From positions 1 to 58,581 of the forward strand of contig NZ_NTMG01000032.1 in assembly GCF_002487355.1 (NCBI RefSeq): a stretch of 58,581 bases of DNA, in the 5' to 3' direction. The translations under genes and the position numbers were made by a program. Below are positions 47,442 to 58,581 of this stretch, piece by piece. The notes under the pieces were generated by a model. That model did not search any database. It had not been told where the DNA came from and saw only the letters and a program-made list of their open reading frames with translations. Positions within the stretch are counted from its first letter, which is position 1. Each line of letters starts with the position of its first letter. The stretch comes from Candidatus Methanoperedens sp. BLZ2. GTDB taxonomy: Archaea; Halobacteriota; Methanosarcinia; Methanosarcinales; Methanoperedenaceae.

Positions 47442-48884
47442 TTATGGCACTCGTATTAACACCTCACAACAATTGTCCCCGTGCGACAATAATTTCTTAA
47501 CATCAAGCTCGGCCCTGTTCCCAAAAGCGTGGTTCACTGCCCCTTTAAAAGTTTCCCTTATCGTATGGCAGATGTATTTATCGACTGAATTACCTTCAGC
47601 TACAATATTGCATTTCTTGATTGTATATAGTAGATTTTTCCCATCCGGTTTCCATTCGCTTTCCCTGTGGAGTTTAGAATCAATTATTTCAAGAGCTTTC
47701 TGGAAATTCTGGAATTCCCAGCTTTTTATATTATTCTCTTTTTCGTACTCCTGCATCAGGGATATCCCTATCCTTCTCCCCAGGGCTGTCAGCGATACAG
47801 GTATATCAGGAATGTTCTTTAGCCCTTTTAAAAAAGCCATGAACATTATCAAGTCCTGGTCCACCCTGCTGTTACTGATCTTGAGGTTGCTTACTATCTC
47901 GTTTATCCTGATCCCCACATCCGGCCTGTGTGTCAACACGACCATATTGGCAGTTGACTTGGCATCATAAAGGTGGCCGTTCGCTTCCAGAAGTGAGACT
48001 ATGCTTGTTTTCAGTTTGTCTATTACCTCCTTGTTCCTGTAATTATGGAACAATATGAGATTCTCCCGGTCAACCTCTACCCTGTCCACAACTCTTGAAG
48101 TTTCATATACTTCCTTAATCAGGGACAGCATTTCGCGAAGAGGAATTTCCTGGATAGGTTTCTTGGCAAGCGTTTCTATTGTTATCTCGCCCATAGGAAC
48201 TTTACCAGAAAGCAGATCCTCAAAGTAGTTCCTGTGAACGGTTACCATATTGTAATTGCTCAGGAGATGTCCGTTGATTATTGATTTCCAGAAATCAGGG
48301 CGGCTTTTGATGGCCTGGATAATTTCATTCAAACCTCCAAAAGAGGTAATAAGGCTATCATATCCTTCCTTCTTGTTTGATTTTGATAGTTCAACTCTTA
48401 TACCTCCATCGAGATTAAAAACCGAAGTTATCTCAAGCGGAGCATGCTCAGGTGAGTTTTTCACAAGATACTGGGCAAGCATCCTCGCAACGAATCTTAT
48501 TTTCTGGGGCGAGCCTTTGACCTCTATCAATACTTCTGATGCAGATGTATCATTATCGTATTTCAGGGAAAGGTCAACATCCCACTCCAGTTCGCTGAAT
48601 TTGTTCTTGAGATATTCTTCAAGTTTTCCCATCGAATTTATCAGCATGGGACCTATCAGATCATCCAGTACATTGTCCGGGACAAGCAAACCGTCGATCT
48701 CGTTGAGCATCCATTTGAACAACGTATTGTCAATTGTGGAAATATTCTCAAGTTCACTGTTCTTTCCAGCCCGGTCTATTATCTCTCTTATTGCGGCGCT
48801 GAAATTACCTTTATGTTTTTCAACATAAGGCTCCATCTTCTGTATGCAATCATTGTCAAGAGAGATATGTCTTGTAACGATCAT
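47442..48884 (-). CDS. RHH/V4R-like putative sensor-regulator, copy 1
   Basis: 480 residues, one of three paralogues here. Residues 1-40 (VTRHISLDNDCIQKMEPYVE, then NFSAAIREIIDRAG) look like a ribbon-helix-helix DNA-binding segment. The middle ~330 residues match no family I know. The end (KKCNI, YICHTIRETFKGA, LLSHGDNCCEVLIRVP) resembles a V4R small-molecule-binding domain with conserved Cys and His. The RHH, V4R and regulator calls are inferences from pattern. ATG 48884 aligns with the starts of the other copies (xxxxRHIS). It is immediately upstream of the seven-heme cytochrome operon. Confidence 0.65.
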   Translation of the reverse strand: MIVTRHISLDNDCIQKMEPYVEKHKGNFSAAIREIIDRAGKNSELENISTIDNTLFKWMLNEIDGLLVPDNVLDDLIGPMLINSMGKLEEYLKNKFSELEWDVDLSLKYDNDTSASEVLIEVKGSPQKIRFVARMLAQYLVKNSPEHAPLEITSVFNLDGGIRVELSKSNKKEGYDSLITSFGGLNEIIQAIKSRPDFWKSIINGHLLSNYNMVTVHRNYFEDLLSGKVPMGEITIETLAKKPIQEIPLREMLSLIKEVYETSRVVDRVEVDRENLILFHNYRNKEVIDKLKTSIVSLLEANGHLYDAKSTANMVVLTHRPDVGIRINEIVSNLKISNSRVDQDLIMFMAFLKGLKNIPDIPVSLTALGRRIGISLMQEYEKENNIKSWEFQNFQKALEIIDSKLHRESEWKPDGKNLLYTIKKCNIVAEGNSVDKYICHTIRETFKGAVNHAFGNRAELDVKKLLSHGDNCCEVLIRVP

Positions 48885-48917
48885 AATTACCCCATTTCTT
48901 TCTCTGGTGGTCTTCAT

Positions 48918-49370: not shown

Positions 49371-50813
49371 TCAAGGCATCCTTATGATCACCTCGCAGAA
49401 ATTATCTCCATGTGTCAGTAAATGTTTCGTACACATCCGGGCTTTGTTTCCAAAAGCGTAACTCAATGCCCCCTTAAATGTCTCCCTCACAGTATGACAA
49501 ACGTAATTATCAAATTCATTTCCATTTCCTGCAATATTACATTTCCTGATTGTATAAAGCAGATCCTTTCCTTCTGATTTCCATTCACTTTCCCTGTGGA
49601 GTCTTGCATCTATGCTCTGTAATGCCTTCTGGAAGTTGTCCAGTGTCCACGTCTTGATGTTATTTTCCAATTCATATCCCTGCATTAAGGATTTACCTGT
49701 CCTTCTACCCAGGGATGTCAGGGATATGGGAATATCAGGAATGTCCTTTAATCCTTTTAAGAATCCAAAAAATACCAGAAGTTCCTGGTCAAGCCTGGTA
49801 TTGCTGTTTTTCAACGTCTTAACGATCTCATTTATTTTTATTCCAACATCAGACCTGTGGGTCAATATTACGATGTTGGCTGTTGCCCTGGCATCAAACA
49901 TATGGCCATTTGCTTCCAGGAGCGCATGAGCGCTTTTTCTTAGTTTTTCAATAGCTGCCCTGTCCCTGTAACTATGGAATAAAACAAGTATGTCTTTATC
50001 GATTTCCACCCTGTCAACTATCCTTGATGTTTCAAAGACCTCTTTCATAAGATGAAGCATTTCTGTAAGAGGGATTTCCCGGATGGGTTTTTTTGCAAGA
50101 TTTTCTATTGCGACCTCCCATGCCGGTATTTTACCCTCAAGCAGGTCCTCAAAATAATTCCTGTGGACAGTGACCATATTATAATTACTTACAAGATGCC
50201 TGTTGAACAGGGATTTCCAGAACGCTGGGCGGGTCTTTATAGTCCTGACAAGCTCGTCTGTCTTTCCAAAAAAAATCTCAAGGCTAAGGAGCGCATCTTT
50301 ATTATTTGAACCTGATAATTCAACTTTTATACCTTCATTAGTATTAACGACCGACATGACTTCAAGAGGTTTAATTTTAAGTGAATTTTTGACAAGATAC
50401 TGGGTAATTAAGCTTGTAATGAATTTTATTTTTTGATTGTTGCCTTTTATTTCCATTAATACTTCACCAGGGGAAATATCATTATCAGATCTTAATGTGA
50501 TGCAAATTCCCCACTTAAGTTCCTCAAATCTTCGATTAAGATAACTTTCCAGTTTGTCCATCGAATTCATCATTATAGGATCTACGAATTCATTAAGTAT
50601 CTCAGAAGGAAGGAGCTTTTCATCTATTTCCTTGAGTATCCAGTTAAATAAGGAATGGTCTATTGCAGATGAATTGATCCTGGTATCATACTTTCCAGCC
50701 TGGCAAATCATATCCCTTAATGCTGCGCCAAAATTCCCGTTATGCTTATCAGCATAGGGTTTTAATTTCTCAATATATTCATCTTCAAGTGAGATATGCC
50801 GTGTAATATTCAT
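49371..50813 (-). CDS. RHH/V4R-like putative sensor-regulator, copy 2
   Basis: 480 residues, collinear with copies 1 and 3 from MNITRHISLEDEYIEKLKPY to HGDNFCEVIIRMP. Shared invariants include NYNMVTVHRNYFEDLL, DIPISLTSLGRRTGKSLMQ, RLHRESEWK and CHTVRETFKGA. Three cysteines in the C-terminal domain are common to all copies; this copy has an extra one (MCTKHLL). It lies between the cytochrome b module and the small membrane protein plus copy 1. Confidence 0.65.
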   Translation of the reverse strand: MNITRHISLEDEYIEKLKPYADKHNGNFGAALRDMICQAGKYDTRINSSAIDHSLFNWILKEIDEKLLPSEILNEFVDPIMMNSMDKLESYLNRRFEELKWGICITLRSDNDISPGEVLMEIKGNNQKIKFITSLITQYLVKNSLKIKPLEVMSVVNTNEGIKVELSGSNNKDALLSLEIFFGKTDELVRTIKTRPAFWKSLFNRHLVSNYNMVTVHRNYFEDLLEGKIPAWEVAIENLAKKPIREIPLTEMLHLMKEVFETSRIVDRVEIDKDILVLFHSYRDRAAIEKLRKSAHALLEANGHMFDARATANIVILTHRSDVGIKINEIVKTLKNSNTRLDQELLVFFGFLKGLKDIPDIPISLTSLGRRTGKSLMQGYELENNIKTWTLDNFQKALQSIDARLHRESEWKSEGKDLLYTIRKCNIAGNGNEFDNYVCHTVRETFKGALSYAFGNKARMCTKHLLTHGDNFCEVIIRMP

Positions 50814-52694: not shown

Positions 52695-54131
52695 CTATTG
52701 AATTCGTACTACCACCTCGCAAAAATTATCACCTTGAGATAATAATTTTTGAACATCTAATACTGCTTTATTACTGAAAGCATAGTTCATTGCTCCTTTA
52801 AACGTCTCCCTTATAGTGTGGCAAATGCATTTACTGGGATCATTCCGGGCAATGCTGCATTTCCTGATAGTATAATGCAGGTTTTTTCCATCCGCTTTCC
52901 ATTCACTTTCCCTGTGAAGCTTTGAGTCAATAATTTCAAAAGCGTTTTTGAATTTCTCCAGGTTCCATTCCTTGATGTTATTTTCCAATTCATATTCCTG
53001 CATTATGGATTTACCAAGTCTTCTTCCCAGGACAGAAAGAGATAAAGGAATATCGGGAATGTCCTTCAGGCCGTTCAGGAAAGTAACGAACATCAATAAT
53101 TCCTGATCAACTTTATTGCTGCCCGTTTTCAGATTATCTATTAATTCATTGATCTTTAAACCGATATGGGGCCTGTGTGTCAGCACGATCATATTTGCTG
53201 TTGATTTCCCATCGTACAGATGGCCGTTTGATTCCAGCAGTGTTAAAATAATCCTTTTTAATTTATCCACTGCTTGTTTTGCCCTGTAATTATGGAAAAT
53301 GACCAGTTTGTCGTTTTCGATTTCCACCCTGTCAACAATCCTTGAGTTCTCATAAACCTCCTTTAAGAGCCAGAGCAGATCTTTAAGAGGTATTTCCCGG
53401 ATTGGTCTTTTTGCAAGAAATTCTATCATCACTTCCCCCCCTGGTATATCATTAGCAAGTATGTCTTCAAAAGAGTTCCTGTGGATTGTGACCATATTGT
53501 AATTGCTGAGGTGATGACCTTTGATAATCGGGATCCAGAAATCAGGACGGCCTTTTACAGTCCCCAGAATTCCGTTCAATCCTCCGAAAAAAGTGATTAA
53601 ACTATCTTCTGCCTCTGTTTTATCTGACAGTGATAACTCAACTTTTATGCATTCATTGAAATTGACGACTGACCGTACTGCCAGTGGTGAGCGGATGAGT
53701 GAATTTTTCACGAGGAACTGTGACACTAATCCCGCAATAAACTTTATTTTCCGTGGTGAGCCTCTTATTGTTAAAAGGACCCCGGCTGGAAAATTATCAT
53801 TATCGCATTTCAAACAAAGGTTTACTCCCCACTCAAGTCCTGTTAACCTCTTGTTTATATTTTCTTCAAGTTTTCCCATGGAATTTATCAACATCGGGCT
53901 GATCAATTTATCAAGAACGTCCCCGGGAACCAGTATATCATCGATCTCCTGTAACATCCAGTTAAACAAAGAAGTATCTATTGCCGATGAATTGAAGGCC
54001 TGATTGTATTTTCCTGCCTGGCAAATCATATCCCTTAAAGCGGCTCCCATATTCCCATTATGTTTATTTATATATGGCTCCATTTTTTTCAGATATTCAT
54101 CGTCAATGGATATGTGTCTTGAAAAGTTCAT
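52695..54131 (-). CDS. RHH/V4R-like putative sensor-regulator, copy 3
   Basis: 478 residues, third paralogue. N-terminal MNFSRHISIDDEYLKKMEPY, RHH-like helix NMGAALRDMICQAGK; C-terminal RKCSI, ICHTIRETFKGA, QGDNFCEVVVRIQ. ATG 54131 is preceded by GAGGGACC and matches the starts of the paralogues. It directly precedes the module 2 cytochromes (stop 30 bp from the cytochrome c start) and follows a small membrane protein. Confidence 0.65.
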   Translation of the reverse strand: MNFSRHISIDDEYLKKMEPYINKHNGNMGAALRDMICQAGKYNQAFNSSAIDTSLFNWMLQEIDDILVPGDVLDKLISPMLINSMGKLEENINKRLTGLEWGVNLCLKCDNDNFPAGVLLTIRGSPRKIKFIAGLVSQFLVKNSLIRSPLAVRSVVNFNECIKVELSLSDKTEAEDSLITFFGGLNGILGTVKGRPDFWIPIIKGHHLSNYNMVTIHRNSFEDILANDIPGGEVMIEFLAKRPIREIPLKDLLWLLKEVYENSRIVDRVEIENDKLVIFHNYRAKQAVDKLKRIILTLLESNGHLYDGKSTANMIVLTHRPHIGLKINELIDNLKTGSNKVDQELLMFVTFLNGLKDIPDIPLSLSVLGRRLGKSIMQEYELENNIKEWNLEKFKNAFEIIDSKLHRESEWKADGKNLHYTIRKCSIARNDPSKCICHTIRETFKGAMNYAFSNKAVLDVQKLLSQGDNFCEVVVRIQ

Positions 54132-54241
54132 GGTCCCTCTTAGAATGTTAAATAGATCCTGCATGAAGTTTCACACAGGATCTTGTTCTTGTGCCTCTTT
54201 CCCCGCTTCATTGTTATGCCTGTCTTTAATGGAATACGGAA

Positions 54242-54772: not shown

Positions 54773-56659
54773 ATGATACGCATAAGATTCGAACTGACAT
54801 TATTCGTAATGATAATGATAACCGGGCAGGCAATGGCTGCCGATGTAAAAGTATTTCCTTCAAGTTATCCCGCGAACCAAGGAGAGACTTTTAATTTGAA
54901 TGTAACAATAGACCCGCAGGGAGCAGCAATTGCAGGTGCGCAGTTAAATATCGATTTTGATCAAACAAAGATCAAAATAAATAATATTACTGAAGGAAAC
55001 TTATTCAAACAGAATGGAGCAAGCACTTTCTTTGCAAATGGCATTATAAATAATTCAACAGGTACTGTGATAAATCTGTTTGGTGTAGTAATTGGCAGGA
55101 CGAATGTATCAAATCCTGGCACATTCATCATTATTAATGCTACGGCCATTGGTTCATCAGGTACATCCGGAATAAGTCTTTCAAATGTTAAGATCAGCAA
55201 TTCTGAAGCCCGGCCTGTTCCTCCGGTAGTATATAACGGAAGTGTGACCATTAACAGCCCGCCAGTACTTTTGAAGATCGGTGATAAGAAGATTTTTGAA
55301 GGCCAGGCACTTACTTTCACTTTATCTGCAACTGATAATGATTCAGATACTCTTACATACTCAGCTTCAAACCTGCCGGCTGGTGCGATTTTTAATCCTG
55401 CCACAAAAACTTTCAGCTGGATGCCTGATCTCACACAATCCGGTATTTATCAGAATGTACATTTTGAAGTTTCAGATGGGACATTGAGGGATTTTGAGAA
55501 TATCGCAATAACTGTAAATAAGCGTTCAAATATAGTCGTAACACCGTCAAGCAAGATCGTAAATCCCGGGCAGACCTTGCGCCTTAACATATCAATTGAC
55601 CCGATGGGTAATCCGATCTCAGGAGTACAGCTTTCTCTTACATATGACAGATCGATCCTTAGAGTGGATAGCGTAACAGAGGGAACTCTCTTCAAACAAA
55701 ATGGAGCAAGCACGATCTTTAATGGCGGTGTAATAGATAATACATCAGGAAAAGTAAACAATATTTATGGGTCCATCCTCGGTCCTTATAATGTTACAAC
55801 TGCAGGGACGTTCTTTGCTATTGACTTCACAGCAATTGGTTTATCAGGGGCATCCATTGTTAATATTTCAGATATAATGATAAGCGACCAGTCCGGATAT
55901 CCGGTGGCGTTCAATCTGACCAGTGGAAGCGTATTAATAAACAGCCCGCCGGTGCTCAATACAATTGGAAATAAGACCGTTGATGAAGGCCAGGCTCTTA
56001 TTTTCACTTTATCAGCGGCTGATGCAAATGGAGATGCGCTTACATATTCCGCAACAAATCTTCCCTCTGGCGCTGTGTTTATCCCTGCAAACAGGACGTT
56101 CTTGTGGACACCAGACTTCACACAATCGGGCAATTACCCGGATATTCGTTTTGAAGTATCTGATGGCAGTGTGACGGATTTTGAAAATATGATGATAACT
56201 GTAAATAACATCAACAGGCCACCCACATTTACTTCTTTCCCGTACAATGGCTCAACGTTTGATGAAACACAGAGTATCCCGATCAGCATTATAGCAAACG
56301 AGCCTGATAACGACACACTTAGCTACATAATAAAATTGGATGGCAAACTGGTGAGTACAACGGCAAGTTATCTCTGGGTAACTAATTATTCCAGTTCAGG
56401 CAACCACAATATAGAAATATCAGTAAGCGATGGGACAGTATCTGTTATGGGAATAACAATCGTTTACATAAATAATGTATATCCAAGATACGATGTTAAT
56501 AAAAACGGAGTAGTTGATATTGGAGACCTGACAATAATCGGACAGCATTTCACTGAAAAGGTCAATGCGCCATATCCGGGATATGATGTTAACATGGATG
56601 GGGTTATTGATATCTCAGATATTACAATTACCGCCCAGCACTTTGGAGAAAATACATGA
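54773..56659 (+). CDS. Secreted scaffold protein with two cohesin domains and a dockerin
   Basis: 628 residues. Signal peptide 1-23. Cohesin-like domain 24-161 (NQGETFNLNVTIDP; AGAQLNIDFDQTKIKINNIT), putative Ig/cadherin-like domain 162-250, second cohesin-like domain 253-390, second Ig-like domain 391-478, third Ig-like domain 481-568. A C-terminal dockerin 572-628 has two calcium loops (DVNKNGVVDIGD, DVNMDGVIDISD), each followed by (T/I)xxxQHF. It should bind cohesins through the dockerin and dockerin-bearing proteins through its cohesins. No catalytic domain. The next gene starts 4 bp inside its end. Confidence 0.88.
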   Translation: MIRIRFELTLFVMIMITGQAMAADVKVFPSSYPANQGETFNLNVTIDPQGAAIAGAQLNIDFDQTKIKINNITEGNLFKQNGASTFFANGIINNSTGTVINLFGVVIGRTNVSNPGTFIIINATAIGSSGTSGISLSNVKISNSEARPVPPVVYNGSVTINSPPVLLKIGDKKIFEGQALTFTLSATDNDSDTLTYSASNLPAGAIFNPATKTFSWMPDLTQSGIYQNVHFEVSDGTLRDFENIAITVNKRSNIVVTPSSKIVNPGQTLRLNISIDPMGNPISGVQLSLTYDRSILRVDSVTEGTLFKQNGASTIFNGGVIDNTSGKVNNIYGSILGPYNVTTAGTFFAIDFTAIGLSGASIVNISDIMISDQSGYPVAFNLTSGSVLINSPPVLNTIGNKTVDEGQALIFTLSAADANGDALTYSATNLPSGAVFIPANRTFLWTPDFTQSGNYPDIRFEVSDGSVTDFENMMITVNNINRPPTFTSFPYNGSTFDETQSIPISIIANEPDNDTLSYIIKLDGKLVSTTASYLWVTNYSSSGNHNIEISVSDGTVSVMGITIVYINNVYPRYDVNKNGVVDIGDLTIIGQHFTEKVNAPYPGYDVNMDGVIDISDITITAQHFGENT

Positions 56660-57807
56660 GACTGATCGGCCATAAATTTTTCTTATTTTTCTTAATTGCC
56701 ATTATTGAAAGTCCAGCTGCTATTGCTGCGACTGTTTACCCGGACCAGCTTCCGTCCAATATTTCTGCTGGCCAGACGTTTGATATTGGAGTAAAAGTTG
56801 ATCCGCAAAGTATAGCGATCGCAGGTGCACAGATGGATATCTCATATAATAAATCCGTACTTAAGATAAACAGTATTACGGAAGGAAATCTCTTCAAACA
56901 GTATGGGACAACTACAATTTTTAATGGCGGTGTAATAGATAATTCGCTTGGCAGGGCAGTAAATATTTATGGTTCGATCATAGGACAAAAAAACGGACAA
57001 AATTCCGGAACCTTTATTATTATCAATTTTACTGCACTTAATTCTATAAATGATCCACAGATACAGATCAATCTTGAAAATGTCCGGGTCGTTGACCCTG
57101 ATGGAAATCAAGTTTTTCCGACTCCTGCTTCGACACCTGGCCAGCAGGAGAAAGGAACTTCCAGTTCTGGTGCAGGGGGAAGCAGTTCGGGTGAAAACCA
57201 TACAAACATTGAATTGATAGAAAAATATGACCTTTATATTTACAGGAATGTCACAACTTCCTACAGGTTCAGGGAACAAACAAATCCGATAGTTTTTGTA
57301 AATATTACGGGTAATACAGATTCATTTGAAATAACTACTTCTGTAGAAGTATTAAAAAGAACTTCAACCCTTGTGAAATCCGGTGCTCCTGGATTGGTCT
57401 ATAAGAATATCAATATCTGGGCAGGGAATTTTGGATATGCGACACCGGATAACATAAAACATGCAGAAGTAATATTCAGGGTGCCTATTGCATGGATGGA
57501 GGCCAATAATATCGATCCGGACTCGATTGAAATGATGCGATATGATGATGAGTGGCAGTCTTTGCCCACAAGAAAGATCGGAACGTATAATAGTGATATC
57601 CTGTATGAATCCAGTACCATTGGTTTCTCATTTTTTGCAATAAACGGAAAAAAATCAACCGGGGAAATGAATAATTATTCCGGAACTACAACCATTCAAC
57701 CAGAAAATCATGCCAATTTAAACAATTATGTATTGGTTGTTGTCTTCGCAAGTATTGTAACAGGTTCAATCCTGGTTTATAGAATAAGGATGCTTAAGAA
57801 GAAATAA
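56656..57807 (+). CDS. Membrane-anchored cohesin protein (PGF-pre-PGF-like C-terminus)
   Basis: 383 residues. Signal peptide ~1-24, one cohesin-like domain ~25-157 closely related to those of the upstream protein (AGAQMDISYNKSVLKINSIT; TIFNGGVIDNS; VNIYGSIIG). Then a Ser/Gly linker 157-180, a ~150-residue domain resembling the PGF-pre-PGF module of archaeal surface proteins, and a C-terminal helix 357-376 with a KKK stop-transfer end. It overlaps the upstream stop by 4 bp (ATGA), so it is co-translated. It would anchor the upstream dockerin protein to the cell surface. Confidence 0.85.
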   Translation: MRLIGHKFFLFFLIAIIESPAAIAATVYPDQLPSNISAGQTFDIGVKVDPQSIAIAGAQMDISYNKSVLKINSITEGNLFKQYGTTTIFNGGVIDNSLGRAVNIYGSIIGQKNGQNSGTFIIINFTALNSINDPQIQINLENVRVVDPDGNQVFPTPASTPGQQEKGTSSSGAGGSSSGENHTNIELIEKYDLYIYRNVTTSYRFREQTNPIVFVNITGNTDSFEITTSVEVLKRTSTLVKSGAPGLVYKNINIWAGNFGYATPDNIKHAEVIFRVPIAWMEANNIDPDSIEMMRYDDEWQSLPTRKIGTYNSDILYESSTIGFSFFAINGKKSTGEMNNYSGTTTIQPENHANLNNYVLVVVFASIVTGSILVYRIRMLKKK

Positions 57808-58194: not shown

Positions 58195-58581
58195 ATGACG
58201 AAAAAAATATTAGCTGTTGTATTAGCAGTGTTTATGCTATTAGTAGTAGCATTTCCTGTAAGTGCAGCAGTACAGGCAACAAAAGTTGAAGTACGTGGAT
58301 CTGTATGGAATCAAGGTGATAACGTATCAGATGCCTCATGGAATTCTCAAAAGTTTGCAGGTTTCTACTATGACCTCAAAAACAACCTTACCACAGAATC
58401 GTTAAGATTCCTGGCTACACCAGGCAGGTCAAATCTAGAAGATACAATTGAATACAAAACAGGAATAGTACCTGTTGAATTCAAAGTAAAAGAGAAGGAA
58501 GGTCTATATGTAACAAATATTTCCGGTACAGCAGCAACAACTTACAGTGTTGTTGGCTGGCAGGCTGAGAAATGGATAGCT
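58195..58581 (+). CDS. S-layer protein, N-terminal part (runs off the window)
   Basis: 129 codons visible, open to the window edge. Signal peptide MTKKILAVVLAVFMLLVVAF-PVSA, then VEVRGSVWNQGDNVSDASWN and KFAGFYYDLKNNLTTESLRF. This is the start of the Methanosarcina-type S-layer domain (DUF1608, related to the major sheath protein). It would form the outer protein lattice of the cell. Strong ribosome binding site and long leader agree with high expression. Confidence 0.9.
   Translation, partial: MTKKILAVVLAVFMLLVVAFPVSAAVQATKVEVRGSVWNQGDNVSDASWNSQKFAGFYYDLKNNLTTESLRFLATPGRSNLEDTIEYKTGIVPVEFKVKEKEGLYVTNISGTAATTYSVVGWQAEKWIA

Follow-up and report, generated by a model that had tools for sequence, protein, structure and literature searches.

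At the end of one contig of Candidatus Methanoperedens sp. BLZ2, two overlapping genes encode proteins built around cohesin and dockerin modules, which raises the question of what these modules would hold together on an archaeal cell surface. The stretch analysed, here called the window, is 58,581 nucleotides long and is contig C59 of a MAG of 3.74 Mb in 85 contigs (99.99% complete). Cohesin-dockerin proteins are already known from ANME archaea and from Archaeoglobus. For ANME-1, 2a and 2c, scaffoldin-like proteins that combine a dockerin with several cohesins have been described, with surface attachment as the proposed role (Chadwick et al. 2022, PMC9012536), and that paper summarises the experimental verification of archaeal cohesin-dockerin binding. 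Within ANME-2d, the clade to which Methanoperedens belongs, Timmers et al. 2017 (PMC5244752) counted few cohesins and dockerins; in its two ANME-2d datasets the table apparently puts cohesin domains at 4 and 12 and dockerin domains at 4 and 6, the column order being inferred, and it presents counts alone, with no gene pair, anchor or partner. Dockerin-like proteins also appear in a 2025 paper on Lake Cadagno Methanoperedens (PMC12246660).

Architecture of the two proteins

The features of the locus are as follows, in window coordinates.

54773 to 56659, + strand: scaffoldin-like protein of 628 residues (signal peptide, cohesin, Ig, cohesin, Ig, Ig, dockerin)
54773 to 54841, + strand: scaffold signal peptide LFVMIMITGQAMA-A, about residues 1-23, read from the sequence
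54872 to 55252, + strand: cohesin 1, PF00963 at 44.0 bits, above the cut-off
55259 to 55516, + strand: Ig-like domain 1, He_PIG (Pfam)
55547 to 55933, + strand: cohesin 2, PF00963 at 49.9 bits, above the cut-off
55940 to 56170, + strand: Ig-like domain 2, He_PIG/Big_9 (Pfam)
56240 to 56416, + strand: Ig-like domain 3, Big_7, weak in the window and above the cut-off in two homologues
56474 to 56656, + strand: type I dockerin, class A (YDVN...QHFGE), PF00404 above the cut-off, class A profile E 4.5e-34
56492 to 56527, + strand: dockerin calcium-binding loop 1, D574-D585, read from the sequence; D574, N576, D582 and D585 invariant in six homologues
56585 to 56620, + strand: dockerin calcium-binding loop 2, D605-D616, read from the sequence; D605, N607, D609 and D616 invariant in six homologues
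56656 to 56659, + strand: ATGA overlap of the first gene's stop codon with the second gene's start codon, read from the sequence
56656 to 57807, + strand: anchor protein of 383 residues (signal peptide, cohesin, PGF-pre-PGF, C-terminal transmembrane helix, basic tail)
56764 to 57105, + strand: cohesin 3, PF00963 at 44.2 bits
57193 to 57645, + strand: PGF-pre-PGF domain, TIGR04213 (PGF_pre_PGF), 147.9 bits, cut-off 28
57730 to 57786, + strand: C-terminal transmembrane helix VLVVVFASIVTGSILVYRI, hydropathy peak 2.23
58195 to 58581, + strand: S-layer protein gene, first 129 codons, cut by the contig end

The sequence-only reading, whose coordinates and reading frames proved exact, had described the first product as a secreted protein in which a pair of cohesins and three Ig-like domains are joined by a dockerin with two calcium loops, and the second as a cohesin on a membrane anchor; profile searches bear out both descriptions. 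In the scaffold, Pfam places Cohesin (PF00963) on two stretches with E 4e-20 and 72.9 bits (cut-off 24.1). The He_PIG/Big_9 Ig-like domains occupy residues 163-248 and about 390-466, and residues 490-548 reach 16.1 bits for Big_7, below its cut-off of 24.1 and above it in two homologues. Dockerin_1 (PF00404) covers residues 573-619 at 31.9 bits against a cut-off of 22.9. The dockerin is a duplicated F-hand of the type I kind: its halves have 15 of 23 residues in common, and both calcium loops are complete (D574-x-N-x-N-G-x-x-D-x-x-D585 and D605-x-N-x-D-G-x-x-D-x-x-D616). Apart from its signal peptide the scaffold has no transmembrane helix by hydropathy and by eye, the means by which all signal peptides and transmembrane helices were called here, with no dedicated program. 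In the anchor, Cohesin scores 41.0 bits over the whole protein (Pfam cut-off 24.1), and the hydrophobic helix at residues 359-377 is followed by a basic tail.

Comparison with solved structures points the same way. The scaffold dockerin matches solved dockerins of cellulosomes such as 2y3n_B, with E 1.7e-6 as a single sequence and 1e-9 as a profile. A single cohesin used as a phmmer query matched no solved structure, whereas profiles of related cohesins did, with 5lxv_A at E 1.4e-9 and also 1g1k, 2vn5 and 2xdh. We take 2xdh to be an Archaeoglobus cohesin. The cohesin and dockerin genes of Archaeoglobus fulgidus, presumably AF2375/AF2376 (Bayer et al. 1999; Haimovitz et al. 2008), resemble the present case as adjoining archaeal genes outside any cellulosome, the link here being the cohesin-profile match to 2xdh only. 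AlphaFold2 models reached a pLDDT of 38 and 36 on thin alignments of 9 and 6 rows, low values because the aligned sequences came from three genomes only. The architecture, cohesins with Ig-like domains and a dockerin on one protein and an anchored cohesin on the other, is right and lies far beyond chance. The first protein, predicted to be secreted, thus combines cohesins and a dockerin, and the second presents a cohesin, a PGF-pre-PGF domain and a transmembrane helix in what is predicted to be a surface location, so that a scaffold and anchor at the surface are well supported as a prediction. The 4-base ATGA overlap makes translational coupling of the two genes likely.

Conservation and neighbourhood of the pair

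Close relatives keep the pair in its setting. In LFW-24, a Little Forest MAG of 'Ca. Methanoperedens' (PMC8561730), both genes are present on contig CABMCA010000123.1 with 85-90% protein identity, followed by the S-layer gene and lying divergent to a redox cluster (NrfD, FeS, class III cytochrome, b561 and NapC-like genes), in the order of the window, where that cluster lies upstream of the pair. The genome G021 has the same order of pair, S-layer gene and redox cluster within the stretch compared, and its intact S-layer homologue (L055:6262-8331) has 689 residues, two S-layer domains and a PGF-CTERM motif. A 5-kb piece, L052, holds the pair and the adjoining upstream gene. In both genes of the pair dN/dS is 0.24-0.37, and the pair is under purifying selection.

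Some further observations concern these loci. L052 (CAJPFH010000048.1) is filed under a Flavobacteriales MAG and is Methanoperedens DNA, with proteins 83-94% identical in the same order; its filing is probably a binning contamination. G021 carries the entire locus on two contigs, C5 (L054) and C20 (L055), with near-identical proteins, either a duplicate or an assembly artefact. On the minus strand of the window, three paralogues of about 480-490 residues (47442-48917, 49371-50813 and 52695-54164) are interleaved with the redox genes, an order kept in relatives; the two that were scanned gave no Pfam match.

The two-gene unit reaches beyond this setting. Among more distant Methanoperedens, G002 encodes a scaffold that has a single cohesin, two Ig-like domains and a dockerin, and the overlapping gene after it codes for a cohesin; G013 has the same kind of scaffold with a truncated overlapping cohesin partner. 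Neither lies in an S-layer context. Two further families of the order (G024 and G032; G039) have a small cohesin-dockerin protein that precedes a cohesin-PGF-pre-PGF anchor, and the unit thus occurs in three families in all. In a cohesin tree, the anchor cohesins of the genus group in a separate clade with support of 100/98 that excludes the scaffold cohesins. The earlier idea of a scaffoldin and a membrane-anchored cohesin beside an S-layer gene is therefore upheld, by S-layer synteny in close relatives and by the recurrence of the unit in three families. Among the sequence evidence, the recurrence of the pair is the strongest indication that the two products work jointly.

Dockerin classes and candidate cargo

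The sequence-only reading had supposed that free cohesins would serve other dockerin proteins, and such proteins were found: the genome encodes three dockerins, at C59 (the window), C40 and C15, together with five cohesins above the Pfam cut-off. A class-specific profile added a sixth at C43 that Pfam had not picked up, and a candidate at G000:C28:10865 was not counted since it scored 15.6 bits, below the cut-off. The C43 cohesin is of the window type and sits with a CarboxypepD_reg domain on an unanchored secreted protein of 263 residues (L136:4970-5761; G000:C43:55275-55691); single-cohesin proteins similar to it occur in LFW-24 and G021.

The class A dockerin profile finds two places only in the genome, the scaffold (E 4.5e-34) and the C40 protein (E 1e-27), against which the C15 dockerin scores 0.4. 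Across the genus, class A dockerins are present in 10 of 31 Methanoperedens genomes, all ten of which have class A cohesins (called at E below 1e-20), compared with only 2 of the 21 genomes that have no class A dockerin. With both modules on one protein in several genomes and kinship ignored, this co-occurrence has a Fisher p of 1.5e-6, or 5.8e-5 for genomes at least 90% complete only.

The C40 protein has 764 residues, comprising a signal-like N-terminus, a catalytic-like region, an Ig-like stretch that falls below the cut-off, a CBM_4_9 module and the dockerin. A profile of the catalytic region matches the Cwp19 glycoside hydrolase structure 5oq2 with E 1.7e-6, and a paralogue of the region has a weak GHL10 match. 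Its gene is unlinked to the pair and lies among polysaccharide-synthesis genes for a hexapeptide transferase, a FemAB-like protein and a GT2; a full-length homologue (74%) was found in G021 only. The statement that the system comes without any polysaccharide enzyme hence stands for the locus and fails for the genome, where a class A dockerin is carried by this glycosidase-like protein with a CBM. Around the C40 dockerin gene and elsewhere there are many copies of an Ig and CBM_4_9-like repeat (L011; G000:C40:18655-33304; C42:84153-90084), in open frames of up to about 5,600 codons and some with in-frame stops.

Elsewhere in the genus, the domains that accompany class A dockerins are beta-helix/disaggregatase-related and fn3 in G015, beta-helix in G013 and a lectin domain of laminin-G-like type in G022. 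LFW-24 has its second class A dockerin (L073) on a protein of 769 residues that differs from the C40 protein and, by phmmer, has no family besides the dockerin and no enzyme family. The converse arrangement, an enzyme carrying a cohesin, is seen in G015 (L091:5317-8403), where an apiosidase-like glycosidase that also has PKD domains is fused with a window-type cohesin. LFW-24 has in addition at least six secreted proteins (L074-L079) with a third dockerin class (GDINGNGKVTLVDAIYLAKHVGGF), on domains as unrelated as polysaccharide deacetylase, CAP and beta-propeller.

A separate cohesin-dockerin set with a large repeat protein is found at the C15 locus (L010:4550-11603). The dockerin there belongs to a different class (TCQGDI...), the two cohesins form a separate clade with the cohesins of G003 (100/100), and a 219-residue protein with a transmembrane helix comes next. 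Sets of this type occur elsewhere at L059:2057-7102 (G003) and L084:7000-7743 (LFW-24). The homologous dockerin protein has a cytochrome c-like domain directly before the dockerin in LFW-24 (CANCH; PF13442 at 27.3 bits, cut-off 27) and in G003 (CASASCH; 24.8 bits, below the cut-off), a domain that is absent from the C15-type dockerin protein of the window's genome and of G017. In LFW-24 and G003, this protein is a possible heme protein held by cohesins.

Proposed role, alternatives and significance

From these sequences we infer the following arrangement. The anchor would be exported and kept in the membrane by its C-terminal helix, with its one cohesin facing outward. The scaffold would be secreted, and its dockerin, predicted to be calcium-dependent, would plug into the anchor cohesin and leave the two scaffold cohesins free to collect other class A dockerin proteins at the S-layer. 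As the single other class A dockerin protein in the genome, the glycosidase-like C40 protein is the candidate cargo, and proteins of this putatively glycan-acting kind would be held there to trim or bind exopolysaccharide or surface glycans made by the archaeon itself. Cargo of this kind is suggested because the sole other class A dockerin is on a protein with a glycosidase-like region, a CBM and polysaccharide-synthesis neighbours. A surface-tethered cohesin-dockerin scaffold that probably holds glycan-acting proteins at the cell surface is, in our judgement, a reasonably good bet.

The division of labour among the cohesins leaves room for other arrangements. Since the three window cohesins are about 41-46% alike and form one broad class, the scaffold dockerin could equally bind the scaffold's own cohesins, and the C40 protein could bind the anchor directly. 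Dockerin helix positions were tried as a guide to pairing: G11/G17-Q18 in scaffold dockerins versus S17 in cargo dockerins is a difference that holds for several Methanoperedens, yet as a predictor it fails in G013 (L066), and positions 11, 17 and 18 fail as a scaffold/cargo rule in other families.

The shared cohesin class would also suit a self-assembling surface fibre, in which the scaffold dockerin binds other scaffold copies and the chains end on the anchor, structural or adhesive and with no enzyme cargo. Ig-like repeats typical of adhesive surface proteins, the small number of class A dockerins in the genome, and the connection of cohesin/dockerin proteins with adhesion in ANME-SRB consortia (Murali et al. 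2023, PMC10553843) are in keeping with such a fibre; the class A dockerin on a glycosidase-like protein with a CBM, and the distinct clade of anchor cohesins within the genus, make it fairly unlikely all the same. That domain shuffling left behind cohesins and a dockerin that do not bind, with the Ig and PGF-pre-PGF parts doing the work, would agree with the lack of both modules in many Methanoperedens genomes and with the description of the Archaeoglobus pair as an "enigmatic vestige" in the title of Bayer et al. 1999 as cited in PMC9012536. Such a relic is very unlikely given that both calcium loops are intact in all homologues, that dN/dS speaks for constraint, that the unit is kept over three families and that class A dockerins strictly co-occur with class A cohesins.

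Display of cytochromes was, beside partner contact, a function that the sequence-only reading had ventured; on this view the free cohesins would hold multiheme cytochromes. The conserved divergent position beside the redox cluster (NrfD, FeS, cytochrome b561, NapC-like) and the cytochrome c domain on a dockerin protein of a different class in LFW-24 and G003 lend it some colour. However, neither CxxCH nor CX4CH occurs in any of the three dockerin proteins of the window's genome, and the class A dockerin proteins at the genus loci examined have no CxxCH; display of cytochromes by this locus is unsupported for that reason, and we regard it as very unlikely. With only two class A dockerins in the genome and no heme motif on either, glycan-active cargo appears more likely than cytochromes. 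A broader reading, for which we see only a slim chance, is that two non-crossing sets plug the Methanoperedens surface, the window's set with glycan-acting proteins and the C15-type set with a large surface-repeat protein and sometimes a cytochrome c. If that were true, part of an extracellular electron path would be assembled through cohesin-dockerin plugs.

The proposed glycan-holding scaffold resembles a bacterial cellulosome in having a scaffold with cohesins and a C-terminal dockerin and an anchor cohesin on the cell surface, and differs from it in having no cellulase set and no SLH or sortase anchor. Instead of several dockerin-bearing plant-polysaccharide hydrolases, the genome has one glycosidase-like class A dockerin protein, and Pfam finds no cellulose-binding module in the scaffold. 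It shares with the scaffoldins of ANME-1, 2a and 2c the presence of a dockerin and several cohesins on a single secreted archaeal protein; in contrast to them, the Methanoperedens (ANME-2d) scaffold has just two cohesins, its gene overlaps one that encodes a membrane anchor with a cohesin, and the candidate cargo is a glycosidase-like protein where the cargo in those ANME groups includes ABC-transporter binding proteins and S-layer proteins (PMC9012536). An overlapping scaffold-anchor pair with a PGF-pre-PGF anchor and a glycosidase-like class A partner was not found described in the open-access ANME literature compared.

What emerges is a compact archaeal set of three cohesins at the locus, a fourth class A cohesin elsewhere and a pair of dockerins. 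With it comes a concrete unit conserved across three families of the order, in which a cohesin-PGF-pre-PGF anchor comes after a cohesin-dockerin protein. The set bears on what cohesins and dockerins do in archaea outside cellulosomes, and the locus points to glycan handling over electron transfer.
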